Below, piece after piece: positions 5,578 through 41,766 of a stretch of DNA of 46,601 nt. The notes beneath the pieces are model-generated. The model worked only from the letters and a program-made list of their open reading frames with translations, did no database searches and was not told the DNA's origin. Within the stretch, counting starts at the first letter, position 1, and each line of letters begins with the position of its first letter. This DNA comes from a virus: the IMG/VR virus record IMGVR_UViG_3300017783_004180, positions 1 through 46,601 of that record. One strand, written 5' to 3'. The translations under genes were made by a program, and so were the position numbers.

Positions 5578-5592
5578 AATATCTCCTTTTAG

Positions 5593-5718
5593 TTATTTTG
5601 TATTAATTTTTGAAAGCCAACCTTTTACAGTTGTTTCAATCCAACTCGCCCAAAAGGGTTGTGGAAAATTCCAGCCGATGAAAGCACCAACTGCAATCCA
5701 GAATAGAATATCTAACAT
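5593..5718 (-). CDS. 41-residue membrane peptide
   Basis: ATG 5718 shares its A with the phoH stop (TAATG). The peptide begins with a hydrophobic Trp-rich segment (LDILFWIAVGAFIGWNF) and ends polar. It is cotranscribed with phoH and the EF-hand gene. Short TM peptides at this position can be holin-like or effectors, but nothing specific is visible. Confidence 0.6.
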   Translation of the reverse strand: MLDILFWIAVGAFIGWNFPQPFWASWIETTVKGWLSKINTK

Positions 5719-6473
5719 TATCGTTTACTCCTTGTTTGTTTAGGTTTAGCATCTTCAGATTTAATCTTAGCAATGATATATTCTTTTACTAAGTCACTTC
5801 TGACGATGTCGTTTACTGTAAACTCGACACGAGCATAACTATTCATATGCCTTACTATCTCCATGAAATTAAAAAGACCTTCCCTTTCGGTGCCCTTTCT
5901 TAAATCAGTTTGGCGATAGTCGCCACAAAACACAATACGAGAATGGTCGCCCACCCTTGTAATAATTGTGTCAAGTTCCTCCCAGTTTAGATTTTGACAT
6001 TCGTCCACTATTACTACAGTGTCATCAAATGTTAATCCCCTGACGAAAGATGTTGAAGCAAAATCTAAATTGTGTTGCGTCATCAACCTATCGTATGGGT
6101 CAGGATAAACCAGATTATCTACTTTCTTAGCGAACAATGCCGATGCTATATGTTTATATGGCAGTTGATATTGTTCTAGCTTTTCTTCTAGATCTCCTGG
6201 CAAATGACCAATCTCTCTACTTTGTACAGCAGATCGAATAATCAAAACTTTCTCAAACTCTTTATTCAGTACAGACTCTAATGCTTTATACATCGCAATA
6301 TAAGTTTTACCTGTACCAGCTACACCATGAGCCATAATGATTTGTTTACTTTTATCATTATAGAAGTCAAAAAACTTTTTCTGACTATCGTTGAGAGGAT
6401 CGACTCGTTTGAGATCGGCGATCTTCAACTTTGCTTTAGCAGATGGAGCATCTGCTTTTTTCGCTCTGGGCAT
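5718..6473 (-). CDS. phoH: PhoH-like ATPase
   Basis: A Walker A motif (GVAGTGKT, residues 50-57) and Walker B (VVIVDECQN) define the PhoH P-loop family. The helicase-like sensor FCGDYRQTDL follows. The phage phoH gene is widespread in marine phages and its exact role remains unsettled; phosphate-stress and RNA-related roles have been proposed. The length of 251 residues and the basic C-terminal tail fit phage members. ATG 6473 lies one base after the upstream stop. Confidence 0.92.
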   Translation of the reverse strand: MPRAKKADAPSAKAKLKIADLKRVDPLNDSQKKFFDFYNDKSKQIIMAHGVAGTGKTYIAMYKALESVLNKEFEKVLIIRSAVQSREIGHLPGDLEEKLEQYQLPYKHIASALFAKKVDNLVYPDPYDRLMTQHNLDFASTSFVRGLTFDDTVVIVDECQNLNWEELDTIITRVGDHSRIVFCGDYRQTDLRKGTEREGLFNFMEIVRHMNSYARVEFTVNDIVRSDLVKEYIIAKIKSEDAKPKQTRSKR

Positions 6474-6724: not shown

Positions 6725-7804
6725 TTATACTGCTTCCTTTAAAGGTTTACTGAGTTCATCCCAGTCTAATTCATAATCACTATCACTTTCACTGTATTTC
6801 AGCACTCCTAGTTTTTCATATCCAGGAATAACTTCTTCAGGAAGTAATCCAATTTTTTTCAGGTTAGGCATTATTCTACTGAACAATACTTCTTGAAACT
6901 GTGTTTGAAATAAATTTTCTTTTGAATATTCTTCAGTTGCTACTAAATCTAATCCATATTTTTTCCATACTTCAAAAGGTCTTAATCTATTTCTTGATAC
7001 TGTACATGCTTCAAGTGCAAACTTAGCACGATCTAATACTTCTTCTTCTGATAAAGTTTTAACAAACTCATGTAAATAATTAATACCAAAAGTCACATGC
7101 CTAGCTTCATCTCTAATAATTAATCCAATCATCTCTTTATATACTGGGTCACGACTTGATTCTTTTGAAGCATTAAATGCTGCGAGTGCGAGTCCTTCAA
7201 TAATTACTTGCATTCCGATAAACTTTAAATCCCATCTTGGGTCAGTAAGTATCTTATCTAGTAAAGTTTTCAGACCAGTTCCTATTGGCCAACTCGTTTT
7301 AATTCTTGTTTGTAAATATTTGTTAAATGCTTCTACATGTCTTGCTTCGTCAAAGGTTTGACTTGCTGCATACAACTTTGCGTTGAATGTTGGAGCACAG
7401 GATGCTAACTGACTTGCTACAAGTAAAGCACCTTGCTCACCATGTAAAAACTGACTAAGTGCCCATGCGTTTTGGTCATGTAAAAATGCTTTTCGTTTCT
7501 TTGTATCCCAGCCTTTATACATTTCATGTTCAGTCCATTGATTATCTTCAAACTCAAACTCTTCATCAGTGATACCTTCAAACTCTGGCGACCAATCAAC
7601 ATCAACCTCTACATTCCAGTTTAACTCCTTGCCTAATTCATACAACTTACGAATGCGATTATCTTGTACTGTATAATCCCAGTTATATGAGCCAGTCAGT
7701 GGAGTCTGAAATATCTCGACAACATCAGTTGGTTCTAGTTTTTTTGGATATTCACCATCGAAATCACGAACTTCTTTGGGTGTGGTAGTCTTTATAATTT
7801 TCAT
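6725..7804 (-). CDS. Ferritin-like carboxylate-bridged diiron protein
   Basis: Two diiron half-sites are visible in a helical protein of 359 residues. The first is a Glu in HGEQGALL followed about 30 residues later by DEARHVEAF; the second is a Glu in VIIEGLAL followed by RDEARHVTFG. This E...DEARH repeat is the ligand set of the ferritin-like superfamily (R2, AurF-type N-oxygenases, aromatic monooxygenases). It is distinct from the NrdB at 32533-33528, and no Tyr is placed as in R2. An oxygen-activating oxidase or oxygenase is likely; the substrate is unknown. A perfect TATAAATA late box ends 5 bases before the ATG, so the mRNA may be leaderless. The neighbours are phoH and the alternative oxidase. 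Confidence 0.75.
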   Translation of the reverse strand: MKIIKTTTPKEVRDFDGEYPKKLEPTDVVEIFQTPLTGSYNWDYTVQDNRIRKLYELGKELNWNVEVDVDWSPEFEGITDEEFEFEDNQWTEHEMYKGWDTKKRKAFLHDQNAWALSQFLHGEQGALLVASQLASCAPTFNAKLYAASQTFDEARHVEAFNKYLQTRIKTSWPIGTGLKTLLDKILTDPRWDLKFIGMQVIIEGLALAAFNASKESSRDPVYKEMIGLIIRDEARHVTFGINYLHEFVKTLSEEEVLDRAKFALEACTVSRNRLRPFEVWKKYGLDLVATEEYSKENLFQTQFQEVLFSRIMPNLKKIGLLPEEVIPGYEKLGVLKYSESDSDYELDWDELSKPLKEAV

Positions 7805-7817: not shown

Positions 7818-7950
7818 ACTCTTCTATCGGTGGTAAGTGTTTCTTTTTATTAGGCACAACCTGACTTCTATACTTGGGTGTGCGTAGTTCTTTGGCAACA
7901 GGGTCTCTACTCCGAATATCTTTTATTGACTTGCGAGTGTTTTTCTTCAT
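7813..7950 (-). CDS. Small basic protein (45 aa)
   Basis: ATG 7950 lies inside the last 44 bases of the alternative oxidase gene in another frame. The product is strongly basic (KKNTRKSIKDIRSRDPVAKE) with a PKYR motif. From memory, T4-like marine phages carry a short Lys/Arg-rich protein with the same ...RSRDP...ELR.P.. pattern. Basic character suggests nucleic-acid or ribosome binding, without proof. Confidence 0.6.
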   Translation of the reverse strand: MKKNTRKSIKDIRSRDPVAKELRTPKYRSQVVPNKKKHLPPIEEL

Positions 7951-8482
7951 CTGCCCTTACCTTTTTAATTACATCTGTTAGTTTCGCACTCTTTTTTAAT
8001 TTGTAATAATCTATCGCTATCTGTGGTGCGTCGACATTTTCAGTTTGTCCAGACTCTACCATATGTAAATATTGTGTATAACTTTTTACTGCTTCCTCTT
8101 CAAAATAATGTGTCATACGATGAGCAGTTTTAGGAAAGAAAATATATAGTAGTAAATAAAAAATAATAAAAATAAACTGAGCAAATAAAACTATGTATCG
8201 TTCTAACCATGATGGTTTTGCGATATCAATAAAAATCATTAGATGCATTCTTTCATTCTCAGCTTCATCCATCATCTCGCGAATCTTTGGACCCAAGCCA
8301 CTCTTCATCTTACGAAGAGATTTCATATGTAGCCAAACACCAGCAACCATTCCAGGAACTGCAGCAACAGTTTCTAATACGACTGCACGATGCCCATACC
8401 TTTTAGCAAAAAAAGTATCGGCTATGAAACGAAAGAACATAGTCATGCTCTTCGCAAACTTATCTTTAATTATTTCCCCCAT
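7907..8482 (-). CDS. aox: Alternative oxidase (AOX/PTOX family)
   Basis: All four conserved boxes with the diiron ligands are present: LETVAAVPGMV (Glu37), AENERMHL (Glu and His), FEEEAVKSYT (Glu) and RADEEKH (Glu and His). AOX is a membrane-associated quinol oxidase that passes electrons straight to oxygen and bypasses the proton-pumping bc1 complex and cytochrome oxidase. The 191 residues are the catalytic core without a targeting extension, as in bacterial forms; hydrophobic residues 95-120 fit its membrane hairpin. Cyanophages carry the related plastoquinol oxidase. The neighbours include a membrane peptide, ThyX and, 1.7 kb away, a c-type cytochrome. It may keep NADH oxidation running during infection (inference). 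Confidence 0.93.
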   Translation of the reverse strand: MGEIIKDKFAKSMTMFFRFIADTFFAKRYGHRAVVLETVAAVPGMVAGVWLHMKSLRKMKSGLGPKIREMMDEAENERMHLMIFIDIAKPSWLERYIVLFAQFIFIIFYLLLYIFFPKTAHRMTHYFEEEAVKSYTQYLHMVESGQTENVDAPQIAIDYYKLKKSAKLTDVIKKVRADEEKHSQVNKRYSE

Positions 8483-10208: not shown

Positions 10209-10237
10209 ATTCTAATTAATAAAAACTTAAATGTCAA
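10209..10237 (-). promoter_or_regulatory. Sigma70-like promoter, leaderless
   Basis: Minus strand TTGACA (10237-10232), 17-base spacer, TAGAAT (10214-10209), then TATAAC and ATG 10202. It overlaps the last codons of the cytochrome gene. Confidence 0.7.
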
Positions 10238-10664
10238 ATCCATCAATATATGCCTGTAAGTCTTCCATATCCTGAGTTGACAGGTTTGCTGCCTGTCCCC
10301 ACATTAATGCTGACTGGGCACCTCTAGTTTCCCCAGCTTTATATTGCTCTAGCATCTTAACAATCGATGTAGATCCAGATAATTTTGGACCAATACCACC
10401 CTCGCCATTCATACCATGACACATATTACAATTAACATATTTCTTAGCACCTCTATCAGCTGGTGTTTCTGATTGCATCGCTACTCGCTTTGCTTCAAGT
10501 TGCTCAGTAAATGTACCAAACTTATTATGGTATTCTTCAAGACACTCACCTTGGCATCCATGAACATCAGTATATCCTTTGACATCTGCGTTGGCGTATG
10601 CTAAGTTCAATATCCAAAACAATCCTATACTTCCGACTAGGAAAGCAGTTATTCCTTCTCTCAT
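10227..10664 (-). CDS. c-type cytochrome with signal peptide
   Basis: A signal-like N-terminus (residues 5-25) precedes a mature part with one heme-binding motif CNMCH (Cys79, Cys82, His83) and a likely distal Met (ALMWG, Met121), as in class I cytochrome c. An extra Cys pair (GCQGEC, residues 37-41) lies in an N-terminal extension of about 45 residues and may form a disulfide. The protein would be exported and receive heme from the host maturation system. It could shuttle electrons from bc1 to an oxidase. Together with the alternative oxidase it suggests the phage alters respiratory electron flow (inference). It is 145 residues long. Confidence 0.85.
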   Translation of the reverse strand: MREGITAFLVGSIGLFWILNLAYANADVKGYTDVHGCQGECLEEYHNKFGTFTEQLEAKRVAMQSETPADRGAKKYVNCNMCHGMNGEGGIGPKLSGSTSIVKMLEQYKAGETRGAQSALMWGQAANLSTQDMEDLQAYIDGFDI

Positions 10665-12229: not shown

Positions 12230-12506
12230 GTATTTGCTCCTTTGGTACACCAGCTTCTTCCCAGTCTGCCAGTTTTCTAGTGGGGACTCTTCTTCGTTGT
12301 CCAGTTTCAGCATTAACCACTTCGTTTGTGTAAAGTGGTTCAGTTCGTATATCTTTCATTGCAGTTGGTACTTGGTCTGATAGTTTCTCATATTCTTGAG
12401 CCAATACATCGTATGCCTGTCTCAAGTTTTTTACTTCTGCTTCAAGTTCCAATATCCTTTTCTTATCAGTAGGATCGCCAAACATATCCATTTGTTCTTC
12501 AGTCAT
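12216..12506 (-). CDS. Coiled-coil hypothetical protein (96 aa)
   Basis: Residues 15-48 predict a coiled coil (LELEAEVKNLRQAYDVLAQ). The C-terminus contains RRVPTRKLADWEEAG, ending HGWD. It overlaps the ketoacyl synthase stop by 8 bases and the MazG-like start by 14, so translation is probably coupled. No catalytic motif; function unknown. Confidence 0.6.
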   Translation of the reverse strand: MTEEQMDMFGDPTDKKRILELEAEVKNLRQAYDVLAQEYEKLSDQVPTAMKDIRTEPLYTNEVVNAETGQRRRVPTRKLADWEEAGVPKEQIHGWD

Positions 12507-13701
12507 CTAAGTTCACCTCTATTACTTGCGACATACATTTACCACCAAAGCCAAACGAATTATTTAGCATCGTACGAGTACGAAGTTGGTTTGAGTACAT
12601 TTCATTCTCACGAACTAGAGTACCATGTACATCTATACTTGATTGTTCTAAATTTTGAATATGTGGAACCCAGCCTTGTCTCATACTTTCAATAGCATAA
12701 CATCCTTCAAGAATACCAGATGCTGCAAGTGTATGACCGATTTTACTTTTCGGTGCCCACATTTTAGTTCCTGGCATAATTTCAGTGACTGCTTCATATT
12801 CGATTGGGTCACCAGCGATAGTACTTGTACCATGAGTACATACATAATCAACTTTATCTAAACCAGCATGACTTAAAGCATCTTGCATAGAAGTACGAGT
12901 ACCAGTTCCTTCTGGGTTTACCATATCTACTGCGTCACTTGCCATACCTGCTTTGTGTAATTTAGCATATGATTTACTTCCAAACTCTTTCATCTTTTCT
13001 TCTGATTGTAAAATCATACATGCTCCACCATCGCCCATCAAGAAACCTTGTCGTCTATCATCAAAGGGCATTGACCAGTTTGCTAATGCTCCTAAACAAG
13101 CAAAGTATTTAATACCCATAGGGAAGTTAGCACAGTCACCAGCAGTACAGATAACATAGTCATACTCATCTACTAATCTCATAGCATAATCTATATTGAC
13201 CATACCAGTAGCACACGATGCGAATGTAGCAGTTGATAAACCTTTGAAGCCATAGTAAGATGTAATATGCATACATCCCATATCAGGAATCCTATTTACT
13301 GCTCTACGAGCATTACCTCGTTTCATGTACTTAATATATTCAAAGTACACATCGATTCCTTCAGTATCATTTGAAACTGTACTGGCAAGGGTTGCTACTT
13401 TAGGACTGCGTTCTATACCAGCCATCTGCATAGCTGACTCAGTAGTACTACTCATCATCTTTTGAGCATTGGTCATACTTCGCCACATCTTTTTGTCAAA
13501 CCCTTCAGGCATAACTATACGATCTTCATCATGCATAGCACCACGATGAATTACTAAGTGGAAAATTTCTTCTACTTGTTTTGCCATGCCAGGGATTTCA
13601 CGAGAGTAATCATTCTCGTCTAGCATTTTTGTGAAACATTCTTCGGGAGTGATGCCGAGAGCATCGCTCATACCATAACCAACTACATGCACAGGTTTCA
13701 T
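12499..13701 (-). CDS. fabF: Beta-ketoacyl-ACP synthase (KAS I/II, FabF-like)
   Basis: The thiolase-fold Cys-His-His triad of KAS I/II enzymes is intact: Cys163 in TFASCATGM, His290 in CTHGTST and His323 in KSKIGHTLAASG. The glycine-rich NNSFGFGGKC near the C-terminus is also present. These enzymes condense malonyl-ACP with a growing acyl-ACP, the elongation step of fatty-acid synthesis; related domains work in polyketide pathways. The length of 400 residues is near FabF. An insertion-like region (residues 110-140) differs from standard FabF, so chain specificity is open. ATG 13701 follows a GGAG site. FabI, AcpS and a desaturase lie 3-5 kb upstream on the same strand and a MaoC dehydratase lies at 40253. 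Confidence 0.9.
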   Translation of the reverse strand: MKPVHVVGYGMSDALGITPEECFTKMLDENDYSREIPGMAKQVEEIFHLVIHRGAMHDEDRIVMPEGFDKKMWRSMTNAQKMMSSTTESAMQMAGIERSPKVATLASTVSNDTEGIDVYFEYIKYMKRGNARRAVNRIPDMGCMHITSYYGFKGLSTATFASCATGMVNIDYAMRLVDEYDYVICTAGDCANFPMGIKYFACLGALANWSMPFDDRRQGFLMGDGGACMILQSEEKMKEFGSKSYAKLHKAGMASDAVDMVNPEGTGTRTSMQDALSHAGLDKVDYVCTHGTSTIAGDPIEYEAVTEIMPGTKMWAPKSKIGHTLAASGILEGCYAIESMRQGWVPHIQNLEQSSIDVHGTLVRENEMYSNQLRTRTMLNNSFGFGGKCMSQVIEVNLDD

Positions 13702-13702
13702 A

Positions 13703-13984
13703 TTATAACTCCATTAAATATTTAGATTCTTCTTTATCTTCTTCCTCTAGTATATACTTAGTCTCGCAAAATAACTCGAAACTTCTAAGTTCTACCATAC
13801 CGAATACTTTATCATTTTTCATACGATGCTTTTCTAATAATCCATCTATGAGATCTACTTTGTTATTAAACACATATTCTTGACACTCTTCATGACTAGA
13901 AAATGATATAGAGGTAAAGTCAGTTTGTACTGTACCAATGCCTTCATACCATAACAGTGCTGTCAAAATTATAAATGTTTTCAT
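13703..13984 (-). CDS. Small secreted or anchored protein (93 aa)
   Basis: An N-terminal hydrophobic stretch (FIILTALLWYEGIGTV) could be a signal peptide or anchor. The rest has two Cys (EECQEY and LFCETK) in a layout like the protein at 22420-22719 (FENRNECAYF ... SCQEF), so the two may be paralogues forming one disulfide in the periplasm. It lies between the ketoacyl synthase and an oxygenase-like gene. Unknown role. Confidence 0.6.
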   Translation of the reverse strand: MKTFIILTALLWYEGIGTVQTDFTSISFSSHEECQEYVFNNKVDLIDGLLEKHRMKNDKVFGMVELRSFELFCETKYILEEEDKEESKYLMEL

Positions 13985-15009
13985 TTAGGATATTTTTTTC
14001 TGTACTCATCCTCTATGTTTATTAGACTTTGCATTACATTACCGAATACTAATTTAAAAGGAACTCCAGGTTTTTCTAAGAAGTCATCATAACCTAGTCC
14101 TTGTTCCTTCAACATCTTTCCTTGCTCTTGTCCTCTACCAAGTAATCGATTTGATAGATAAACATCTTCTGCTTCATCCCAAGACATACCTTTAGCATTA
14201 GTGCCTAGATGTTTTTCTAATTTATCTTTTAGTTGCTCTCCATCAAATACAGTTTCGGGAACATCTTCATTAGTCTCTTTATTATATAGGCACGAAAATA
14301 AACCATTATGTAATCGTGACCCATATTTTACTGTTCTATTATCAGTTTCCATATCAGCATAACCAAATCGATCTAAAGTTTTAGCTAATTTATCCCATCC
14401 TTCAAACTCACCTTTTCTATTCATAAATTCAATAGATATTGCGATTCTAGTTTTAGGAGAGTTATGCCATACTGAGTGTGGTTGTCCCACATTAATTAAT
14501 CCAGGATATGACATTTGAAAACTTAATTCTTCTTTTAGATTGCCTTGATATCCAGGAAGTATTCTTTCTCTTGGTATAATATAAGTTAAATCTTTTTCAG
14601 GATCGCCTGATACATTACACATATCAGAGTCCCACTGTTCAGCTTCACTTGCATCCCAGTATGTCATGATAGAAGTTTCTTCTTCATCAGGTCGCCATGG
14701 TTCATATATTCCAGGACTTACCTCTTCGAATGCCCAAGTCACTCTTCCCCAGTTCGGTCTTGCTGGAGAATCGCAGTGGGGAGACATACGATAATATGGA
14801 TGAGCACGAAATATACTACAGCCATATGGCATAAGCATCATGTCTCTCCATTGTTTCATCATCTCAATACGAAACCAACTATTCCTTACACATATATTAC
14901 CTCGTGCTGGATTTTCTCTTAGTGGTGCTAATATTTGATGTAGGTCTTCGTTAGTAATAGGTCGTTCAAGTGTATCCTTCAACGACATGTAGTAAGGTTC
15001 GTGTTTCAT
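13981..15009 (-). CDS. 2OG-Fe(II)-like oxygenase (342 aa)
   Basis: The double-stranded beta-helix signature of 2-oxoglutarate/Fe(II) enzymes can be read: HxD in MSPHCDSP (His78, Asp80), then a distal His in GQPHSVWH (His178 or His182) and Arg188 in TRIAISIEF, the usual 2OG-binding position. The first 70 residues and the last 120 residues are extra. The substrate is unknown; hydroxylation of an amino-acid side chain, lipid or nucleobase is possible. It is coupled to a second, related oxygenase (15006-15794) by an ATGA overlap and sits inside the lipid block. The family call rests on spacing and is not certain. Confidence 0.65.
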   Translation of the reverse strand: MKHEPYYMSLKDTLERPITNEDLHQILAPLRENPARGNICVRNSWFRIEMMKQWRDMMLMPYGCSIFRAHPYYRMSPHCDSPARPNWGRVTWAFEEVSPGIYEPWRPDEEETSIMTYWDASEAEQWDSDMCNVSGDPEKDLTYIIPRERILPGYQGNLKEELSFQMSYPGLINVGQPHSVWHNSPKTRIAISIEFMNRKGEFEGWDKLAKTLDRFGYADMETDNRTVKYGSRLHNGLFSCLYNKETNEDVPETVFDGEQLKDKLEKHLGTNAKGMSWDEAEDVYLSNRLLGRGQEQGKMLKEQGLGYDDFLEKPGVPFKLVFGNVMQSLINIEDEYRKKYPK

Positions 15010-15794
15010 GTTATATCTCTACTCCATCCAAACTCACCATCTTCTTTTACCCATGCTGAGATAGGAGATGGTTTGTCATCTTTTACAAATAAATGTCCCA
15101 TTCTTTTTTCTATCGCTTTCCAATCATGTATCCTTGAACCAGTTCGTTTATCTCTAAAGTCAATAGAAATAGTATAGGATTCTTTTTCGCCATCATAAAT
15201 CATACTATGAGCACAGTCAGGTCCACCCACACATATAAGTGAGCACTTACCCATCTGAGTATCAAAGTGTTTCTTTACTTTAGGTCTAGTTTCGTCATCA
15301 AACTCTATTAAATTTATTTCAGTATATGGCATCTTTGGGTGTCTGATTTTATTCCTGCGTTCCATATTACAGTCACGAGGATCCCAGAATGCCATACTTT
15401 TATCTGCGTTTTCATCTAAATTTACAGGGAAGTTTAATCGCCAATAATAATTGATATTATAATCGACATAATCTATGTGTGGTCTGAGTGAATATCCTGG
15501 AGGAGATACAAATATAGTACCCACCAAAGCAGGTGCCATCATATTTCTATCTAACCATTTTAGAAACTCAGGATTGAAGTTAAAATGTTTAATCCATAGA
15601 TTTGCTACGAAACCATATGCTGCGTATGAGTATGAAGATTTATCAGTGTACCATTGGTCAGGTATTAAATCTTCTCTGCGTTTTGCCCAGTCGCCACTTT
15701 CTTTATCATACCTTGCTATCTGTTTAGCAAGTTCTGCTTCAGTCAATGGGAATGGAACATCCTTCAACTCTACATGATATGGTGGTCTAAACAT
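15006..15794 (-). CDS. 2OG-Fe(II)-like oxygenase (262 aa)
   Basis: HxD appears in LRPHIDYVDY (His106, Asp108), followed by WRLNFPVN and a distal His in DCAHSMIYDG (His196) before the strand SYTISIDF. This is the order of the metal site in cupin-fold oxygenases. No clear Arg follows the distal His, so the co-substrate may differ. It resembles the downstream 342-residue protein in this core and the two are translationally coupled, suggesting an old duplication. Substrate unknown. Confidence 0.65.
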   Translation of the reverse strand: MFRPPYHVELKDVPFPLTEAELAKQIARYDKESGDWAKRREDLIPDQWYTDKSSYSYAAYGFVANLWIKHFNFNPEFLKWLDRNMMAPALVGTIFVSPPGYSLRPHIDYVDYNINYYWRLNFPVNLDENADKSMAFWDPRDCNMERRNKIRHPKMPYTEINLIEFDDETRPKVKKHFDTQMGKCSLICVGGPDCAHSMIYDGEKESYTISIDFRDKRTGSRIHDWKAIEKRMGHLFVKDDKPSPISAWVKEDGEFGWSRDIT

Positions 15795-16093
15795 TATTTC
15801 TTTTTCGTAGTTTTAGTTTTTTTCTTTTCGTATCCATATTTTTTACGCACATAGTCCTTAGTATCTTGCCATACATGCTCCAAATAAAATTCTTCATCAG
15901 CGAAGAAATTATGGAACTTAACCATTACTGCTCCTGTCCAATTATAAAACCTTTTGAAGATTTTACCTTGGAGTCTTTTTAAGGCACTACCTCTTGGCAT
16001 TGCCCATCCTAGTATAAAAAATAAAAGTGAAAAAGTAAGAATTATGATATAATTAACCAAGCCACTTTCCATTTCAAAAACCAATTCTTCCAT
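15794..16093 (-). CDS. Membrane protein with basic C-terminus (99 aa)
   Basis: I start at ATG 16093 because AAGGA lies 6 bases upstream; the ATG at 16108 has no ribosome site. Residues 13-33 form one membrane span (YIIILTFSLLFFILGW), followed by an amphipathic region and a Lys/Thr-rich tail. It is the first gene after the structured leader at 16109-16272 and is coupled to the oxygenase downstream (TAATG). No family recognised. Confidence 0.65.
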   Translation of the reverse strand: MEELVFEMESGLVNYIIILTFSLLFFILGWAMPRGSALKRLQGKIFKRFYNWTGAVMVKFHNFFADEEFYLEHVWQDTKDYVRKKYGYEKKKTKTTKKK

Positions 16094-16108
16094 TGTGTAT
16101 CCTTTCAT

Positions 16109-16272
16109 ATTGGAAGTTAGTCAAGTGGTAGTTTTTTGTTAATTCGGAAACTACCAAAACCGAACGCATGACTCTCAGATAGAGGAGTTAAACTTATGAA
16201 ATAAGCAACTCAGTGAAGTGGCTACTTTATTTTCTAATATGTGTAGCTTTCACCATGCGAATCTTAACCTCT
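16109..16272 (-). ncRNA. Structured 5' leader with predicted pseudoknot
   Basis: This gap holds three pairings readable on the minus strand. Hairpin 1 (16253-16213) is GTGAA/TTCAC plus GCTAC/GTAGC around an internal loop. Hairpin 2 (16188-16171) is ACT/AGT plus CTC/GAG with one bulge. The third is an H-type pseudoknot: TTCGG (16164-16160) pairs with CCGAA (16147-16143), and TGGTAGTTT (16156-16148) pairs with AAACTACCA (16134-16126). Loop lengths are 3, 0 and 8 bases, compatible with coaxial stacking. A consensus late box at 16278-16285 would start the transcript near 16272. The pseudoknot ends about 20 bases before the ribosome site of the 15794 gene, so control of translation is plausible. 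I do not recognise a known riboswitch class. Confidence 0.6.
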
Positions 16273-17211
16273 AACTTTATTTATATTCACTGCTCCAATC
16301 TTTTCTAAGAAAAGAATAAAATATTGTGTCGGATCGTTTAATCCTTTACCAAAACTAAAGTCCTTTGGATAAGAATGATGATAATCGTGGGATCCTTCTC
16401 CCCAGTTTATGAAACTTAAATACCATGGGACATTACGAATATGTTGTTTTCCTCGTTTGTCACTATGTTGCCATGCGTTAGTTATACCCATAGACCATTG
16501 ACCGAGACCTGCACCAGCAAATGCTGCCCATGCAAAATTAATACCCCACTCTTGAATGTATAAGTATGGACCATCGTACCAATAAAAATGTGTTAAGTAA
16601 TACCCCAACTCTGGTAGCATAACTGCTAATCCATTTGTATATGTTTCTACAATGATTCCCCATAACAACATTAATAAGTAAGCACCAAATATAGTAATAC
16701 ACATAGATTTAAAACTATTATCGTGATACCATCTAGCAGTTTTATTTCTCAGTAATCCTCTTGTAAATCTTAGTGGTACATTTTCAAAGGGTACATCCCA
16801 CCTATGAGTTAAAGATCTTAAAAAACCAATTTGATGTGGACTGTGCGGATCCCTTTCCTCGTCTAGATATACATGGTGCATCCGATGTATTACTGCCCAA
16901 GCTAGTGGACTTCCGATGTTGCTTACTATACAAAGAGAGCAGAAGAAGTGTTCGAGCCATTTCCATTTTACAGTAATACTATTATGTGATAAACTTCTGT
17001 GCGCATATATTGTGATAGCCATTGCTCCGAAAAACCACCATGCCAAAACATAGGGTATTAGATCCCATCTTCCAAATACAATGATTCCTAGCAGACACAA
17101 CTGGGTGAACCACCAGTATCTGATACGAAAATTAATTTTATATGTGGTTAAGTGTTGCTCTCTAAAATTACTGAGCCAATCACGCAACCTTTGAAATCCG
17201 ATAGTGAACAA
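16264..17211 (-). CDS. Membrane fatty-acid desaturase (acyl-CoA/ACP, delta-9 type)
   Basis: The three His boxes of membrane diiron desaturases are complete: HRSLSH (His71-76), HRMHH (109-113) and HDYHH (275-279), between four hydrophobic segments. This matches bacterial acyl-lipid/acyl-CoA desaturases such as DesC, which insert a cis double bond using O2 and an electron donor. The length of 315 residues is normal. The only start near the expected N-terminus is TTG 17211, overlapping acpS by 64 bases, with AGGGG upstream; a later start would cut the first span. The gene's 3' end contains the TATAAATA box for the next unit. It would alter host membrane fluidity or phage-made acyl chains (inference). 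Confidence 0.9.
   Translation of the reverse strand: MFTIGFQRLRDWLSNFREQHLTTYKINFRIRYWWFTQLCLLGIIVFGRWDLIPYVLAWWFFGAMAITIYAHRSLSHNSITVKWKWLEHFFCSLCIVSNIGSPLAWAVIHRMHHVYLDEERDPHSPHQIGFLRSLTHRWDVPFENVPLRFTRGLLRNKTARWYHDNSFKSMCITIFGAYLLMLLWGIIVETYTNGLAVMLPELGYYLTHFYWYDGPYLYIQEWGINFAWAAFAGAGLGQWSMGITNAWQHSDKRGKQHIRNVPWYLSFINWGEGSHDYHHSYPKDFSFGKGLNDPTQYFILFLEKIGAVNINKVRG
16278..16285 (-). promoter_or_regulatory. Consensus T4 late promoter before the structured leader
   Basis: Minus strand TATAAATA inside the last codons of the desaturase gene. The predicted start near 16272 gives a leader of about 180 bases to ATG 16093, which contains the predicted pseudoknot. Confidence 0.55.
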
Positions 17212-17501
17212 TGTATGTTTACCCCTGTTAATTTTTTCCTCATCTCGTCACTCGGTACTAAGTTCGGTGAGATATAGGAAAACATTTTAGCTTCTTTCAT
17301 ACCAACGATTGGGTGTTGTCTTGCTTTCACAAATGCTTCTTTTAACACCCATACCTTTGCTAGATAATTACATTTCTGCCTATCTAACAGTCCATCATAT
17401 ATTTGTTTTTCAGTCGGCGACAATATAGTTTCCGACCATTTATCCCTGCGTCTATCAAATCTAGACTCAAGAACCATATCAATTCCGTGTCCTAAAATCA
17501 T
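17148..17501 (-). CDS. acpS: Holo-ACP synthase (AcpS)
   Basis: Both magnesium-binding residues of AcpS are visible: Asp8 in GHGIDMV and Glu55 in LAKVWVLKEAFVKA. The C-terminal strand NIHCSLSDFKG...SVILES aligns with the family. AcpS transfers 4'-phosphopantetheine from CoA to a Ser of acyl carrier protein. At 117 residues it matches the bacterial enzyme. No acyl carrier protein is seen in the window, so the target is the host ACP or one encoded elsewhere. The start overlaps the upstream stop (ATGA) and the end overlaps the desaturase. Confidence 0.9.
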   Translation of the reverse strand: MILGHGIDMVLESRFDRRRDKWSETILSPTEKQIYDGLLDRQKCNYLAKVWVLKEAFVKARQHPIVGMKEAKMFSYISPNLVPSDEMRKKLTGVNIHCSLSDFKGCVIGSVILESNT

Positions 17502-17740
17502 GTTTGGTAGTACTCTCTTGAAGTGTACTTCTTCAATGTTTCTAGTTTTTCTTCAGCAGCAGAAATCTTTTCTAGTTGTTTATCTATTTCAACCATGACT
17601 TCTGAATGCTCACCTATACCAACTGAGTTGGATATATAGACTTGCATATTAGCATTTGCTTCAGCAATATCACCTTCATATTTTTTGACTAGAGCATCAA
17701 CTATTAGTTGACTTCGCTCTGTCCTGCTTAATCTCTTCAT
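17498..17740 (-). CDS. Coiled-coil hypothetical protein (80 aa)
   Basis: A GGAGAG site precedes GTG 17743 and ATG 17740; I prefer the ATG. The N-terminus is basic (KRLSRTERSQLI), and residues 45-75 form a coiled coil (EIDKQLEKISAAEEKLETL). It overlaps the upstream gene by 44 bases and couples to acpS. No domain recognised; possibly a small structural or partner protein. Confidence 0.6.
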   Translation of the reverse strand: MKRLSRTERSQLIVDALVKKYEGDIAEANANMQVYISNSVGIGEHSEVMVEIDKQLEKISAAEEKLETLKKYTSREYYQT

Positions 17741-18170
17741 CACTTTTTCTCTCCTCTAATATAGTTAGTTCGCCTTTATCGGGATCTATATAGTATTTAT
17801 GCTCATTAATTTCGTCCATAGTTTTATTGGCTTTTTGATGCCAATCCCAAGCAGTACCTCTTACATTTTTCTGACAGAATTCAGGAAACTCTTCTCCCTC
17901 TAATACTATCTCGCAATATACTTTATGTTCGCCTATGGTTGCTGTATTTGCTTTCGCTACTGGTACTCGTTTATCACCTTCTTCAAAAAATATTTGTCGC
18001 TCATGGTCAAGTTCAAATAATTGATGATTGACTACATAACGAATAATACCTTCATCAAACAACTCATCAATCTTATCAACCGAAGTATTCATTACAAAAC
18101 CATTCAGTTGCATCTTTAGTTTTTCGTCTTTCATGGTTGCCCATTTACGATTAATTACATTATAAGTCAT
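17697..18170 (-). CDS. Hypothetical protein (157 aa)
   Basis: ATG 18170 overlaps the end of fabI; ATG 18134 (MKDEKLKMQ) is an alternative. The protein is acidic and soluble, with two Cys (VYCEIVL and PEFCQKN) and no recognised motif. Position between fabI and acpS suggests cotranscription with the lipid genes, but the content gives no functional hint. Confidence 0.6.
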   Translation of the reverse strand: MTYNVINRKWATMKDEKLKMQLNGFVMNTSVDKIDELFDEGIIRYVVNHQLFELDHERQIFFEEGDKRVPVAKANTATIGEHKVYCEIVLEGEEFPEFCQKNVRGTAWDWHQKANKTMDEINEHKYYIDPDKGELTILEERKSDEEIKQDRAKSTNS

Positions 18171-18921
18171 CTATACTCGGTGCCCCAATAATATTATATC
18201 CGCAATCTACATAATGTGTTTCACCTGTCACACCTGAAGATAAATCAGATAGGAAGTAATATGCACTTCCTGCTAAATCCTGTAGAGTGATATTTCGTTT
18301 CATAGGGTTCACTCCTTCGGCATAAGCCAACATACCCTTACTGCCTTTTACAGCCATAGCAGATGATGTTTTTATTACACCTGCCGATATACAATTTATG
18401 CGTACTCCCTTTTCCGCACAGTCTTTCGCTAAGTATCTAGTTGCTGACTCAAGTGATGCTTTTACTAATCCCATTACATTATAGTTGTCGTAAACTCTAC
18501 GAGCTCCATCATAACTAAGTGTGAGATATGCCCCACCTGTGTTCATAAATTCGATACTGTTTCTTACTATATCTATCAACGAATAACATCCTACGAGTAG
18601 CGACTCACTGAAGTTTTCCTTTGATATATCCATCATCTTACCATCTAACTCACGAAAGTCAGTCATACTCATTGCGTGAACAACATAATCAATCTTAGGA
18701 TAATGGTGTTTGACAGCAAGAAAAGCATTCCTTACATCCATACTATTAGATACATCGCACTTAATAGTATGAGCCATAGGCGATAGTCTAGTAATTCTTT
18801 TCTTTATGGAATCGTTTGGATAAGTGAAGACACAAGTATATCCTTCATCTATTAACTTGTTGGCGATACCCCATGCGATGGAGCGATCGTTCGCCACTCC
18901 CATAACAACAGCTACTTTCAT
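18160..18921 (-). CDS. fabI: Enoyl-ACP reductase FabI
   Basis: The protein is a short-chain dehydrogenase with the FabI-specific features: GVANDRSIAWGIA at the NAD site and a Tyr-x6-Lys catalytic pair (Tyr147, Lys154 in NYNVMGLVKASLE) rather than the FabG Tyr-x3-Lys. It also has Tyr137 in LSYDGARR, then GVRINCISAGVIKT. FabI reduces trans-2-enoyl-ACP with NADH, the last step of each elongation cycle. The length of 253 residues is standard. An ATGA overlap joins it to the upstream gene. With the ketoacyl synthase, AcpS and the MaoC-type dehydratase it covers most of a fatty-acid cycle. Confidence 0.93.
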   Translation of the reverse strand: MKVAVVMGVANDRSIAWGIANKLIDEGYTCVFTYPNDSIKKRITRLSPMAHTIKCDVSNSMDVRNAFLAVKHHYPKIDYVVHAMSMTDFRELDGKMMDISKENFSESLLVGCYSLIDIVRNSIEFMNTGGAYLTLSYDGARRVYDNYNVMGLVKASLESATRYLAKDCAEKGVRINCISAGVIKTSSAMAVKGSKGMLAYAEGVNPMKRNITLQDLAGSAYYFLSDLSSGVTGETHYVDCGYNIIGAPSIDDL

Positions 18922-19184
18922 CTATGATTGCTTACACGAACAGTAATATCAGTTGCGTTTAACTTATCTATGTTAGGATAAGTACACTCCCAATCTTCTC
19001 TTGTCCATTTATCTGTAGCCGAATCATAAACATCAAACTGTACCTCTTTCTTTTCAGCAGTAGTTCCTTCTCTATATGCTACTACTAATCTATCTTCGGT
19101 ACATACACGAACTTCACCAGCATACTCGATACCATTCTCTAAATCTTTCAGAGTTGTGATTCTTTCTTCTAGTGGTTTTACCAT
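18918..19184 (-). CDS. Hypothetical protein (88 aa)
   Basis: The sequence alternates short charged and hydrophobic stretches, suggesting a beta-rich fold (EYAGEVRVCTEDRLVVAYRE). It somewhat resembles the SH3-like small protein at 20593-20916 in having a central strand set and a TDKWTREDW segment. Coupled by ATGA to fabI. Function unknown. Confidence 0.6.
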   Translation of the reverse strand: MVKPLEERITTLKDLENGIEYAGEVRVCTEDRLVVAYREGTTAEKKEVQFDVYDSATDKWTREDWECTYPNIDKLNATDITVRVSNHR

Positions 19185-22466: not shown

Positions 22467-22719
22467 AGTAAAATTCCTGACATGAGTGTGACCAAAATTC
22501 TACATAGTAAGTAGTTTCCCCATGAGATATAGTGTAGTTTCCTGTCTCATCCTTTTGAAATGGTAATGGGTATTCTTTTATATTATTCTTTAAAAAATAA
22601 GCACACTCGTTTCTATTTTCAAATGGTATAGTCCAGTTGGAATGAAGAGTGTCTCCACTGCCTACAAATGCAGTAAGCACTATGTAAAAAATAGTATCTA
22701 TGAAAATATCTGGCATCAT
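22420..22719 (-). CDS. Small secreted or anchored protein (99 aa)
   Basis: The N-terminal hydrophobic stretch (IFIDTIFYIVLTAFVG) is followed by a probable periplasmic domain with two Cys (NECAYF and SCQEF) and many Tyr/Trp. The layout resembles the protein at 13703-13984. It is coupled to the cyclase by an ATGA overlap, so a role at the envelope near the cyclase sensor domain is conceivable. No family recognised. Confidence 0.6.
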   Translation of the reverse strand: MMPDIFIDTIFYIVLTAFVGSGDTLHSNWTIPFENRNECAYFLKNNIKEYPLPFQKDETGNYTISHGETTYYVEFWSHSCQEFYYDQESGKWKQVPYSI

Positions 22720-24557
22720 TTTGGTTCGTATATTGTTATAAGTTCTTCTTTTCCCTTCACCTTGATTTTATCAAGTTCTTTGGATTCAATACTATTTAGG
22801 GCATCTTTGGTGTACTGAGAATATAGAGTATGACAGTTTTTATAGTTTCTAGTTTGAGCTTCTAATCTGGCAGCAAGGTTTACTGCGTCACCGATTACTG
22901 AGTAATCAAATCTCATTTCACTACCCATATTTCCTACAATACATGTACCAGTATTTACACCTGAGCCAATATTAATCTCAGGTAATCCTGCTTCTTTATA
23001 TTCTTTCTTTAATTTTTGTGTTTCTTCAGCACACTCTATAGAAGTTTTGACTGCCAACTCTGCATGATTATCACAATCAAGTGGAGCATTCCAGAATGCC
23101 ATAATACAGTCGCCCATATATTTATCGACACACCCACCATTAGCCAATACAATTTTAGTCATACGATTTAAGTAATCATTGATGAGTTCAACTAATCCTT
23201 CTGGGTCATCTTTATTTTTAAAATACTCAGATATAGGAGTAAAGCCAACTATATCCATAAATAAGAAACTCATCTCTCTTTTCTCACCACCCAGTTTTAA
23301 TTTACTTGGATCTTTTTGTAATATAGCAACTTGTCTTGGATCTAGATATCTTTCAAACTGTTTTCTTATTTGTTGTTTTAAATTAAACTCTAGGATAAAT
23401 CTAGTAAAGGTAGCATGAAAACCTACAAGGAATGTAGCTATTACAAACCAAGATACATCTACTAGCCAACCATAATAAGTAAATGCGAAGTATGCTTTCG
23501 CGATGGCAGCAGATACAACCACACCTAGATAAATTGCCAACCAAGCATAAGGTAAAAACCTACAAGCAAAGATAGTAATAATACACCAAAACATCATTAG
23601 CATTATTTCTGCTAATGGCAACCAATCTACTCTAGTTATTTGTTCGCCTGATAAAACAGTTTGTAATGTAGAAGCAGTTATATAATGTGAATACTGTTCA
23701 CCTCTTGGTGTAGCAATTATATTAGATATACCAGCAGCAGTTGGAGATACGATTATAGTTTTACCAAATAATAATAAATCATTTATCCCATTTTCTACAT
23801 CCATCATTGACATAGTATGATATTCTTTATCGTGCCTTAACCATATTCTAGCATTCGCATCAGTTTCAATAGTAGCGAATCCTGGAACTCTCATAGCTTG
23901 TATGCCACCATCACCTGCTTTTACTTGATAGGATGGGTCGCCCACTGCGACTCTAATAACTTCTATGGCTATACTAGGATATATGTCATTATCTATTTTC
24001 ATAAGTAGAGGAACTCTACGAACAACACCATCTATTTCAGGTGCAGTATTTACAACACCTACACCATTTGCTGCCTGACCAAGTTGTGGTATTGGACCAA
24101 GCATACCACCCCACTCAAATAAGTATGGTAATGGGTCACCTATTTTAGCCACACCTCTAGGCACACCATTCTTATTAATATCATTAGTTCCTAACTGAGC
24201 GATAACAGTTCCTGCTTTTAGTGTAGATTCAAACACCCAGTCGCCATCCTCTCTATCTTTTTCTGAGAATAATATTGGGAATACTATTACACCTGCTCCA
24301 GCTTCTCTTAATTTTTCTATAAGGAAACTGTAGTGTACTCTAGAGAATGGGTATTGACCTTTGACATCTAATGTAGCTTCGTCTATTTCAACTATAACTA
24401 TATCTTCAGAAAAAGTTTTTTCTTCTGATGCTAATAGAAAATCAAAAGATTTTAATTTAATTATTTCTTTGAAGTCAGGATTGTATAATCCGATACCTGC
24501 CAGAATGGCAAGTGTTATGAACGCACTAGTCCAGTGTGTTAGAATCTTTTTTATCAT
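22716..24557 (-). CDS. CHASE2-domain class III nucleotide cyclase
   Basis: The 613-residue protein has an N-terminal membrane segment, a periplasmic CHASE2 sensor (roughly 30-300, with DIVIVEIDEATL and YPFSRVHY), three hydrophobic spans (about 310-385) and a cytoplasmic class III cyclase domain (about 425-600). Catalytic features are intact: FLFMDIVGFT (metal Asp), DKYMGDCIMAFWNAP (second Asp) and DYSVIGDAVNLAARLE (Asn and Arg). Such proteins make cAMP in response to an external or envelope signal. Bacterial CHASE2 cyclases often sit beside FecR-domain genes, as here. It overlaps iscU by 32 bases. cAMP versus cGMP cannot be settled by eye. Confidence 0.92.
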   Translation of the reverse strand: MIKKILTHWTSAFITLAILAGIGLYNPDFKEIIKLKSFDFLLASEEKTFSEDIVIVEIDEATLDVKGQYPFSRVHYSFLIEKLREAGAGVIVFPILFSEKDREDGDWVFESTLKAGTVIAQLGTNDINKNGVPRGVAKIGDPLPYLFEWGGMLGPIPQLGQAANGVGVVNTAPEIDGVVRRVPLLMKIDNDIYPSIAIEVIRVAVGDPSYQVKAGDGGIQAMRVPGFATIETDANARIWLRHDKEYHTMSMMDVENGINDLLLFGKTIIVSPTAAGISNIIATPRGEQYSHYITASTLQTVLSGEQITRVDWLPLAEIMLMMFWCIITIFACRFLPYAWLAIYLGVVVSAAIAKAYFAFTYYGWLVDVSWFVIATFLVGFHATFTRFILEFNLKQQIRKQFERYLDPRQVAILQKDPSKLKLGGEKREMSFLFMDIVGFTPISEYFKNKDDPEGLVELINDYLNRMTKIVLANGGCVDKYMGDCIMAFWNAPLDCDNHAELAVKTSIECAEETQKLKKEYKEAGLPEINIGSGVNTGTCIVGNMGSEMRFDYSVIGDAVNLAARLEAQTRNYKNCHTLYSQYTKDALNSIESKELDKIKVKGKEELITIYEPK

Positions 24558-24954
24558 ACCAATTTGATATCGCTTTCTTTATTCCTTCTTCTGCTAATAC
24601 TGAACAGTGAATTTTAATTGGTGGTAAATCTAATGCTTCAGCTATCTCATCGTTTGTAATCGCCATAGCTTGTTCAATAGTTTTACCTTTTAACATATCT
24701 ACGAACATTGTAGAGGATGCAATAGCAGAACCACACCCATATGTTTTAAACTTGACATCTAATATCTTGGCTTTATCAGGATCGTTAGCTTGGTCAAGTT
24801 TTAGTTGAAGTTTCATGACATCCCCACATGATGGGGCACCAACCATACCAGTGGCTATATCTGAATCCTGCGGATTGAATTTACCAACCGCATGCTTTTC
24901 AGGATTGCGTAGAACACTTTCAAATCTTTCTACGACTTCTTTAGAATAAGCCAC
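24526..24954 (-). CDS. iscU: Fe-S cluster scaffold IscU
   Basis: All three scaffold Cys are present: Cys43 in APSCGD (with Asp45), Cys74 in YGCGSA and Cys117 in IHCSVLAEE. The LPPIK motif that the chaperone HscA recognises is also there. IscU assembles 2Fe-2S clusters before transfer to apoproteins. The length of 142 residues is standard. The start is GTG 24954; a late box ACTAAATA ends 5 bases before it, so the mRNA is predicted to begin at the GTG. The neighbours are a curlin-repeat gene and the cyclase. It could boost cluster supply for iron enzymes in infection (inference). Confidence 0.93.
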   Translation of the reverse strand: MAYSKEVVERFESVLRNPEKHAVGKFNPQDSDIATGMVGAPSCGDVMKLQLKLDQANDPDKAKILDVKFKTYGCGSAIASSTMFVDMLKGKTIEQAMAITNDEIAEALDLPPIKIHCSVLAEEGIKKAISNWYDKKDSNTLD

Positions 24955-26794: not shown

Positions 26795-26810
26795 AACAAA
26801 CCTTTACGAA

Positions 26811-28323: not shown

Positions 28324-28336
28324 TGAGCAACTCCCT

Positions 28337-28798: not shown

Positions 28799-28802
28799 AC
28801 TA

Positions 28803-39793: not shown

Positions 39794-40256
39794 CATCATC
39801 TCCTCGTTCAGTTTTAGTAAATTCTAAATTGGTATTCTCATTTATGTCAACGATATTGTCATTAGCTGGCGAATCTGGTATCTGAAGAGGTTCATCATTT
39901 TCACTTCGTATATCATAATTTACTTCCTCATTACTTCCCATTGGTCTTTTCTCAATAGAAACTAAATCGATGGTATCAAAATCTAAGGTTCCAATAATAA
40001 CCTTTGCTTGCTCTTTACCCATCTCGAGCACAAGTATATCTTTCGCAGCAATTAACATACCCATTGATGCACTTATTGCTTGCTTCCCAGTTTTAATACT
40101 TGTTAGTGCTTCCCAAAGTGGTGTAAGAATAAAGTTTTGCTCATACTCATGTTGCTTTCTAACTTCCTCCAACCTATCCGCATCAAATTTTTTCGCAGCA
40201 TATTCGTTGATATCAACTATTTCAGCATCTTGTATATTATCTTTATCGTCTGTCAT
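39774..40256 (-). CDS. Acidic hypothetical protein (160 aa)
   Basis: ATG 40256 overlaps the MaoC stop (ATGA) and has an AAGGAG site. Both ends are strongly acidic; the middle (residues 45-95) is hydrophobic and helical (AISASMGMLIAAKDILVLEM). No motif recognised. The pattern suggests a soluble protein with a compact core and flexible tails. Confidence 0.55.
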   Translation of the reverse strand: MTDDKDNIQDAEIVDINEYAAKKFDADRLEEVRKQHEYEQNFILTPLWEALTSIKTGKQAISASMGMLIAAKDILVLEMGKEQAKVIIGTLDFDTIDLVSIEKRPMGSNEEVNYDIRSENDEPLQIPDSPANDNIVDINENTNLEFTKTERGDDDEESTD

Positions 40257-40753
40257 TTTATCTCCTTCCCTTCGGGATTGACCCAATGTCTTCTTTCAAA
40301 GTTTGGGTCGCTTGATTTAAAAAAGTTTCTATCAACACCTTGTTCAAATGTCTCCATTAATCTTTTGGTTGGTCTAAATACTTGACCACTGCCTTTAGCT
40401 TTTATGATGCCATCGCTCATGTCTTTTATAGCGAATATACCTTCACCAAGTTCACCTGCTTTTCTATCTGTAGCTTTCCATACTTTTCGATAACATTTTA
40501 CTGTTGTAGGAAAGTGTATTGGTGCTAGGAAATTAATTTTAAAATTTCTAATAAAAAATCCAGGAACAGGATTAGAATACAATAAGGATATCATTAATGC
40601 TCCTGGCATAACATTACCCTCTTCATCACCAAAGTGTAAAGGATTATCATCTTGAATAATTTTACAAAAGTTTCTTACCAAGTCTTCAGTAATTTCTACA
40701 TCATGAATATAATCTTTTAATAAGTCTGCTCTATCAAAAGGAACTTCGCTCAT
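40253..40753 (-). CDS. MaoC-like hot-dog (R)-hydratase/dehydratase
   Basis: The MaoC/(R)-enoyl hydratase catalytic motif is clear: QDDNPLHF (Asp35, Asn37, His40). It is followed by GALMISLLY on the hot-dog helix and INFLAPIHFPTTVKC. Such enzymes add water to, or remove it from, (R)-3-hydroxyacyl thioesters, the dehydration step of fatty-acid elongation. The start at ATG 40753 forms TAATG with the primase stop and has GGAG upstream. The 166-residue length suits a single-domain MaoC. It lies 21 kb from fabI but completes the same pathway, replacing FabZ or FabA. Confidence 0.8.
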   Translation of the reverse strand: MSEVPFDRADLLKDYIHDVEITEDLVRNFCKIIQDDNPLHFGDEEGNVMPGALMISLLYSNPVPGFFIRNFKINFLAPIHFPTTVKCYRKVWKATDRKAGELGEGIFAIKDMSDGIIKAKGSGQVFRPTKRLMETFEQGVDRNFFKSSDPNFERRHWVNPEGKEIK

Positions 40754-41766
40754 TAGCATTTTCTCCATAAGTTAAATTTAGCCACAGCATCAACACCCTC
40801 TACACTATTATGTTCTATAAGAGCATGTATTGTTAGAGGTGTTTTACCTGCCATAATCATTTCATTAATATCTTTTTCTTTCACACTATCATTCCATAAA
40901 CAAACACGAAACCCATGATTAATCATTTTCTCAATCTGCTTTACTATGGCAGAGTTTCTTGGTTCATTATCAAATACGATAGTACAGTTATCTTTAAACT
41001 GACTGACTTGTGGTATATTAAAGTCAGCACCAGCTGTAGCAATACAATTATCTAGAAACAAACTATCGATTGGACCTTCGACAACATAAACATGTCTATC
41101 TTTATCTACTCGGTCGAGACCATATACTTTATGATTTTTTTCATTTGTTTTGATTGTATAATACTTAGGTGTTTCATTTCCGAAAGATCTGCCTTGTATC
41201 GCTATTAATTCTTTTTCTTCATTGTAAAATGGTATAACTAATCTTGGCTCATCACTTTCTATCTGATGAAACTTCATGACTATATTATTATTCACCCATT
41301 CTTTAAATCTGGGCACCCAAAAGAAGTGTTGATGAAGATCGTGATTTATGTGTCGTCTTAACAAGAACTTCTTGATTGGGTGCGAGTTATCCAAAGTAGA
41401 TACTAAGTTGGCATGTTTTAGCGAGGTATAAGCCAAGTTCGTATCTGTTTTGAATATTTCTAAATCAGGTTTATCTGTAATATGTTTATTATTAGTACTA
41501 CCAAATTTTTCAAGGGAGTACTCATTATAGATTCTTTGGTCAACCTGCTTGAGCAAGTTGCCTAGACTACTGCCAGCTTGACAGTTATGGCACTTGTAAA
41601 ATAACGAGGACTCTTTTCTATAGATATATCCTCTAGCTTTTGATTGATTTTTTTGTGAGTCTCCACAGAGAGGACAGGAAAAGTTCCATAGATAATCCTT
41701 CTGTTGTTTAAAGTTTCTTACACGAGGTGCAAGCATACTCGCATATTTTGCGTCCACATAAATCAT
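40753..41766 (-). CDS. DNA primase, T4 gp61-like
   Basis: A zinc-ribbon domain (CPLCGDSQ and KCHNCQAG, about residues 31-61) is followed by a TOPRIM-type catalytic domain with VVEGPIDSLFLDN and IVFDNEPRN, as in T4 gp61 and other phage primases. It makes RNA primers for lagging-strand synthesis together with the gp41-type helicase. The length of 337 residues matches gp61 (about 342). The promoter at 41774-41802 places the transcript start within one base of ATG 41766, so translation is probably leaderless. The MaoC gene follows by TAATG. Confidence 0.9.
   Translation of the reverse strand: MIYVDAKYASMLAPRVRNFKQQKDYLWNFSCPLCGDSQKNQSKARGYIYRKESSLFYKCHNCQAGSSLGNLLKQVDQRIYNEYSLEKFGSTNNKHITDKPDLEIFKTDTNLAYTSLKHANLVSTLDNSHPIKKFLLRRHINHDLHQHFFWVPRFKEWVNNNIVMKFHQIESDEPRLVIPFYNEEKELIAIQGRSFGNETPKYYTIKTNEKNHKVYGLDRVDKDRHVYVVEGPIDSLFLDNCIATAGADFNIPQVSQFKDNCTIVFDNEPRNSAIVKQIEKMINHGFRVCLWNDSVKEKDINEMIMAGKTPLTIHALIEHNSVEGVDAVAKFNLWRKC

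Follow-up and report, generated by a model that had tools for sequence, protein, structure and literature searches.

Phages are known that carry single lipid genes, and a few that carry pairs or triples of them. Among the closest described systems, freshwater fonsimyophages encode fabF, a stearoyl-CoA desaturase and 2OGFeDO, without curli genes (PMC7029224), and roseobacter prophages carry fabG-acpP-fabF (PMC8224337). Phage-encoded acyl carrier proteins (ACPs) have been published for the Alteromonas phage R22Y (PMC11705849) and the Erythrobacter phage R6L (PMC5463345), and lipid desaturases for cyanophages (Roitman 2018, as cited in PMC8224337) and pelagiphages (PMC11480375). We analysed a 46.6-kb viral stretch, IMG/VR record IMGVR_UViG_3300017783_004180 (positions 1-46,601; hereafter the window), in which an earlier note had recognized a partial type II fatty-acid synthesis and desaturation set: a ketoacyl synthase (KS), the enoyl reductase FabI, the holo-ACP synthase AcpS, a desaturase and a MaoC-type dehydratase. 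The presence of a fatty-acid gene set on phage DNA was confirmed, and the set is more complete than had been noted, since the phage has its own ACP. The accompanying remark that single lipid genes are known in phages is true but understates prior work: besides phage desaturases and phage ACPs, both the fonsimyophage fabF plus desaturase and the prophage fabG-acpP-fabF are already published. No report of FabI, AcpS and an ACP alongside a KS in a lytic phage came out of our literature search, outside which subscription papers lay.

With the fonsimyophage-type pelagimyophages (PMC7029224), the locus has in common a KS, a desaturase and oxygenase-like genes, which occupy the same region in these related T4-like genomes, but those phages are without FabI, AcpS, the MaoC-like gene and the ACP. 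Like the roseobacter prophages (PMC8224337), it combines an ACP with further type II fatty-acid genes in one (pro)phage; theirs, however, stand in host gene order, as in E. coli, whereas the present genes are scattered and highly diverged, belong to a T4-like phage, and comprise FabI, AcpS and a desaturase but no fabG. The ACPs of R22Y, R6L and phrog_5934 are likewise phage-encoded. That of R6L is a 93-residue open reading frame (ORF), and the profile of phrog_5934 is 93 positions long, whereas here the domain lies within a 321-residue protein; in contrast to R22Y and R6L, AcpS, KS and FabI are found in the same genome as the ACP. Cyanophages and pelagiphages, including Mosig EXVC030M, also carry a membrane desaturase as an auxiliary gene, but the Mosig enzyme is only 27% identical to the one described here, which is linked to an ACP-pathway set. 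As in the bacterial type II (dissociated) synthase, KS, enoyl reductase, hydratase-like enzyme, ACP and AcpS are separate genes; unlike that synthase, the phage is without FabG, FabD, FabH and acetyl-CoA carboxylase (ACC), and its hydratase is MaoC-like, not FabZ or FabA.

KS, FabI, AcpS and the desaturase were all found where the earlier note had placed them (Table 1), on one strand and with intact catalytic residues. The minus strand holds nearly all genes of the window according to the ORF calls, and most reading frames of the operon overlap by a few bases. Family membership was decided by the curated Pfam cut-offs, which all four proteins pass; NCBIfam and PHROG were used as further profile libraries. 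KS matches the two ketoacyl-synt families PF00109 and PF02801 with 75.6 and 78.1 bits (cut-off 20.8), and its residues C163, H290, H323 and K318 are invariant in 10 of 10 phage sequences (57-100% identity). Also invariant are K71 and R74, aligned with K65 and R68 of FabF, which we take to be basic ACP-docking positions. FabI scores 229.7 bits against PF13561 (adh_short_C2/enoyl reductase, cut-off 27), is 39% identical to E. coli FabI, and has Y147 and K154 together with Y137, the equivalent of E. coli Y146. AcpS (40.1 bits against PF01648, cut-off 25), whose relatives in the PDB are AcpS proteins, has the features of that type, namely a length of about 120 amino acids, Mg-binding Asp and Glu residues and a KEAFxKA motif, with D8, E55 and K59 intact. 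The desaturase (34.3 bits against PF00487, FA_desaturase, cut-off 29.7) carries the His boxes HRSLSH, HRMHH and HDYHH, the last within the GEG-HDYHHS signature of acyl-CoA desaturases, which are also its relatives in the PDB; its TTG start is kept in three genomes. The nearest NCBIfam models are fabF, a DesA-family desaturase, a phosphopantetheine transferase/holo-ACP synthase and FabI (PRK06505, 262.9 bits). All four score below the model cut-offs, and the proteins are therefore diverged members of their families.

The four genes occur together in at least six further contigs besides the window: 3300025151_000017 (G001, 117 kb), 3300020463_000008 (G002, 131 kb), 3300017755_003158 (G003, 70 kb), 3300020442_002053, 3300020469_002998 and 3300046755_000248. 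The pairwise ratio of non-synonymous to synonymous substitution rates (dN/dS) is 0.05-0.18 for every gene of the set (0.06-0.07 for the desaturase), similar to that of the core genes NrdA and primase, and the set is under strong purifying selection. Since independent contigs repeat the set with its order kept, and dN/dS is far below 1, it is neither a product of chance nor an assembly artefact. Its phage origin was borne out as well. Primase, NrdA/B and RNase H are neighbours of the set, joined in the relatives by capsid, portal and terminase genes. For capsid and primase the nearest sequences are those of the OM43 phage Melnitz and the SAR11 phages HTVC008M and Mosig (major capsid identity 70% to Melnitz and 67% to HTVC008M), which marks the virus as a T4-like marine phage. 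KS, FabI, AcpS, the MaoC-like protein and the ACP protein have no match in these three cultured phages.

Table 1. Position of the genes discussed in the text (coordinates of the window).
Feature	Position	Strand	Evidence or context
KS, FabF/FabB superfamily, phage-specific clade	12499..13701	-	Pfam, NCBIfam, alignment, tree
342-aa protein, HxD...HX10R motif, probable 2-oxoglutarate (2OG)-Fe(II) oxygenase-like	13981..15009	-	motif only, kept in G001/G002
262-aa protein, HxD...H motif, possible 2OG-Fe(II) oxygenase-like	15006..15794	-	motif only, kept in G001/G002
Integral-membrane acyl desaturase, three His boxes	16264..17211	-	PF00487, PDB relatives
AcpS-type holo-ACP synthase (4'-phosphopantetheinyl transferase)	17148..17501	-	PF01648, PDB relatives
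81-aa protein, phrog_1811, same operon	17498..17743	-	PHROG 82.4 bits
157-aa protein, 32% identical in sister lineage; marks FabI and AcpS insertion slots	17697..18170	-	
FabI-type enoyl-ACP reductase	18160..18921	-	PF13561, NCBIfam, single phage clade
MaoC-like (hot-dog fold) hydratase/dehydratase, D40-x-N-P-x-H45	40253..40768	-	between primase and conserved gene

According to the earlier note, only ketoreduction and the ACP were missing from the window. Both are indeed absent there, and a search of the window proteins alone gave no ACP, but FabD, FabH and ACC are absent too. The search of the rest of the genome for an ACP with a DSL motif was successful. When the related contigs were searched with the Pfam PP-binding family, G001, G002, G003 and G010 gave one match each. 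Window positions 1-46601 correspond end to end to positions 54465-7859 of G003, with 99.93% identity, and in G003 the ACP gene lies at 5401-6366, about 1.5 kb beyond the right end of the window. The gene is therefore cut off at the window end, not absent. Its ACP domain (DLDIDSLDAIELIMDAEDMLG), which carries the motif as DSLD, has a core that is nearly unchanged across six proteins, matches a solved Thermus ACP with E=5e-7 and is 34% identical to E. coli AcpP. The domain is embedded in a protein of 321 amino acids (315-326 across relatives) with a long acidic, charged coil tail; the predicted structure of the whole protein was too poor for interpretation. Nearby genes include one for a DUF6267 protein, one for a cytidylyltransferase-like protein and one whose 371-residue product has a match to a head-protein PHROG.

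The MaoC-type dehydratase, which had been placed at 40253-40753, stands only in part: a gene with the motif is there, but its reading frame ends at 40768, and the product scores below all family cut-offs. D40 and H45, in a DDNPLH motif, are invariant in five orthologues, and a low-confidence structural model (pLDDT, the predicted local distance difference test, 52) has the PhaJ1 R-hydratase, human HTD2, an archaeal MaoC-type protein and HadBD as its best Foldseek matches. The motif and this hot-dog-like model point weakly to a 3-hydroxyacyl dehydratase.

A sister lineage (G006, G007 and others) carries a KS 57% identical and a desaturase 38% identical to those of the window, plus oxygenase-like genes, and has no FabI, AcpS, MaoC-like, ACP or curli genes; Pfam, BLAST and a motif scan found no hidden ACP, AcpS or FabI in it. 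By this gene content it appears fonsimyophage-like, and its contigs would then be of freshwater origin. AcpS was found in G001-G005, G010 and G011, and not in the sister-lineage contigs G006-G009; FabI, the MaoC-like gene and the ACP share this one lineage distribution. When gene order is compared with that of G006, the four genes are seen to occupy four separate slots: FabI between the gene at 18918-19184 and that of the 157-residue protein, AcpS before the desaturase, the MaoC-like gene between primase and the gene at 39774-40286, and the ACP protein between a 115-residue gene and the head-type 371-residue gene. In G006 the flanking genes of all four slots stand in the same order and the slots are empty. 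The same distribution at four separate sites suggests that the four ACP-pathway genes are functionally linked, rather than having been captured as one cassette. It is just as possible that the sister lineage once had all four and lost them.

We consider that there is about an even chance that these genes form an ACP-dependent acyl-elongation module which the host completes, accompanied by a separate membrane desaturase. In such a module, the phage AcpS would load phosphopantetheine onto the ACP domain of the 321-residue protein, KS would condense malonyl units, with malonyl-ACP supplied by host FabD and ACC, the ketone would be reduced by host FabG, the MaoC-like hydratase would dehydrate the product, and reduction of the enoyl group would fall to the phage FabI. 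The phage ACP would thus be a substrate of both AcpS and KS. The desaturase, afterwards or independently, would place a cis double bond in acyl-CoA or lipid chains; because membrane desaturases of this class act on acyl-CoA or lipid, it need not belong to the ACP pathway. The net effect would be acyl chains made or reshaped in the infected cell. The earlier idea that the set supplies membrane lipid while host synthesis fails gains no support from these results.

Several observations weigh against this account. The first concern the steps of the cycle that the phage does not encode. The sole short-chain dehydrogenase in contigs of the lineage is FabI, and the search for FabG in the rest of the genome failed in the relatives, including the 131-kb G002. 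FabD and FabH were not found among the scanned window proteins. In 67 surveyed G002 proteins outside the part syntenic with the window, a few large genes being left unsurveyed, there was no FabD, FabH, FabZ or lipid acyltransferase. This contig is probably close to complete, since genes for capsid, portal, terminase, sheath, baseplate and polymerase turned up in the survey. Without a FabG, FabD or FabH in the relatives searched, the set cannot make fatty acids alone. Further points are that the MaoC-like protein matches no Pfam, NCBIfam or PHROG family above cut-off and no PDB sequence, that some 34 kb separate the KS operon from the ACP gene, whose surroundings are head-related, and that the sister KS, in a lineage without phage ACP, cannot depend on one. 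The rest concern KS itself. Its best NCBIfam model, fabF, is matched with 183.5 bits against a cut-off of 493.75; in a tree of 50 sequences, the phage KSs form a clade (support 100/100) that falls within neither FabF nor FabB and whose stem measures about 5 changes per column; and the loop preceding the PFD motif is missing. Its substrate may therefore differ. Because the clade branches outside FabF and FabB on so long a stem, we only infer that KS is an elongating enzyme.

The same stem prevents the tree from placing the phage KS among cellular families, and a profile scan of genome contigs with the phage KS alignment found no cellular KS relatives. The phage FabI proteins form one clade that is not nested in SAR11 FabI, and the trees rule out a recent capture from SAR11 for both KS and FabI. 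Matches to KS and FabI in phage databases were not taken as relatives: most are distant (22-39% identical), and they are mainly ordinary genes of bacteria, on records of prophages or of apparent contaminants. A separate case is phage MW202545 (ctpbd312; L105, 4593-5537), an unrelated siphovirus with a KS-like gene, its Cys-His-His apparently intact, in the morphogenesis module.

The strongest alternative, which we hold to be somewhat unlikely, is that these are separate auxiliary genes that tune host lipid synthesis on the host ACP: KS for FabF-like elongation, the desaturase for more unsaturation and FabI for relief of a bottleneck, the phage ACP protein serving otherwise. The sister lineage speaks for it, since its KS and desaturase occur without phage ACP or AcpS and must use the host ACP, and the cyanophage desaturases (cited in PMC8224337) are a published precedent. 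It also fits what is found in SAR11, a plausible host. In 13 SAR11 genomes, partly incomplete and picked (within G013-G028) via a 16S probe pattern, a search with E. coli FabF showed one elongating KS each, of FabB type, 59% identical to E. coli FabB and encoded beside fabI; SAR11 may thus lack FabF. None of these 13 genomes had a match to the desaturase, and 3 of 58 Alphaproteobacteria gave weak ones. KS and desaturase would both add functions that SAR11 lacks. Yet a SAR11 host is not established, a dedicated AcpS would be hard to explain if the phage had no carrier protein of its own, and the ACP, AcpS, FabI and the MaoC-like gene are distributed alike across lineages.

A further reading, which we regard as unlikely, sees in the set a phage-specific acyl assembly line. 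It would work on the phage's own ACP, part of a protein of the head neighbourhood and activated by the phage AcpS, would use a KS and FabI family that did not come from the present host, and would yield an acyl group foreign to the host, either as a lipid or bound to protein. Quite improbable, in our estimate, is the related idea that the acyl product is built on the 321-residue protein and is kept there or transferred, the protein being virion- or head-associated and, for example, anchored to a membrane or matured by acylation. The larger protein around the ACP domain, with its long and acidic coil tail, the head or head-internal-like genes around its gene, the phage's own AcpS and a KS surface that differs from that of FabF would all be in keeping with this. 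There is no evidence, however, for a virion location of the protein, whose model is too poor to help, no acyltransferase was found, and FabI with the hydratase suggests full reduction of the chain, as for ordinary fatty acids. That the enzymes have been repurposed outside fatty-acid synthesis, with a polyketide-like or secondary-metabolite KS acting together with oxygenases, is very improbable: KS is far from FabF and FabB and also matches a polyketide KS model (137 bits), and both lineages have oxygenase-like genes in the interval from KS to desaturase, but the best KS model is still fabF, FabI is a fatty-acid-specific reductase, and polyketide genes such as an acyltransferase or a thioesterase were not found.

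The window holds other genes of interest. Neither of the two oxygenase-like proteins of Table 1 had a match in the Pfam search, and an Rfam search of the window gave no match. A curli cluster at 24982-28831 (minus strand) encodes CsgG (190 bits), CsgF (52.6 bits), a protein with a FecR domain and a pair of secreted repeat proteins rich in Asn/Gln, one of which has a sub-threshold curlin-repeat match (E=0.013). CsgA and CsgB are missing according to the pelagimyophage (PMC7029224) and Melnitz papers, and the repeat proteins could be phage curlin-like subunits. An alternative oxidase (AOX; 7907-8482, minus strand, 230.6 bits) adjoins a ferritin-like diiron protein (6725-7804; AurF, 26.4 bits, just under the cut-off), which is present in G001 and not in G002. 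Cytochrome c (10227-10664) and a NifU/IscU-like Fe-S scaffold protein (24526-24954) are also encoded on the minus strand and, together with AOX, suggest effects on electron transport. On the same strand, a membrane adenylate/guanylate cyclase with a CHASE2 sensor domain (22716-24557), 88-89% conserved in G001 and G002, is a candidate phage-encoded cyclic-nucleotide signalling enzyme. In G002 (L070, L071), Pfam matches to an inositol-1-phosphate synthase, a Tet/JBP oxygenase and an amino acid:DNA transferase (ADDT) would point to DNA hypermodification and possibly to inositol lipid chemistry.

The presence under selection of KS, an enoyl reductase, a hydratase-like enzyme, an ACP, AcpS and a desaturase suggests that viruses can run most of an elongation cycle on a carrier of their own. 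This raises the question of why a T4-like phage, whose virion has no membrane, needs acyl chains. The ACP domain within a larger protein offers a direct handle, since mass spectrometry can show what the domain carries. Should SAR11 be the host, it would gain from the phage a KS of a second type, together with a desaturase that depends on oxygen. If the enzymes are active, the lipid composition of infected ocean bacteria would need another interpretation.

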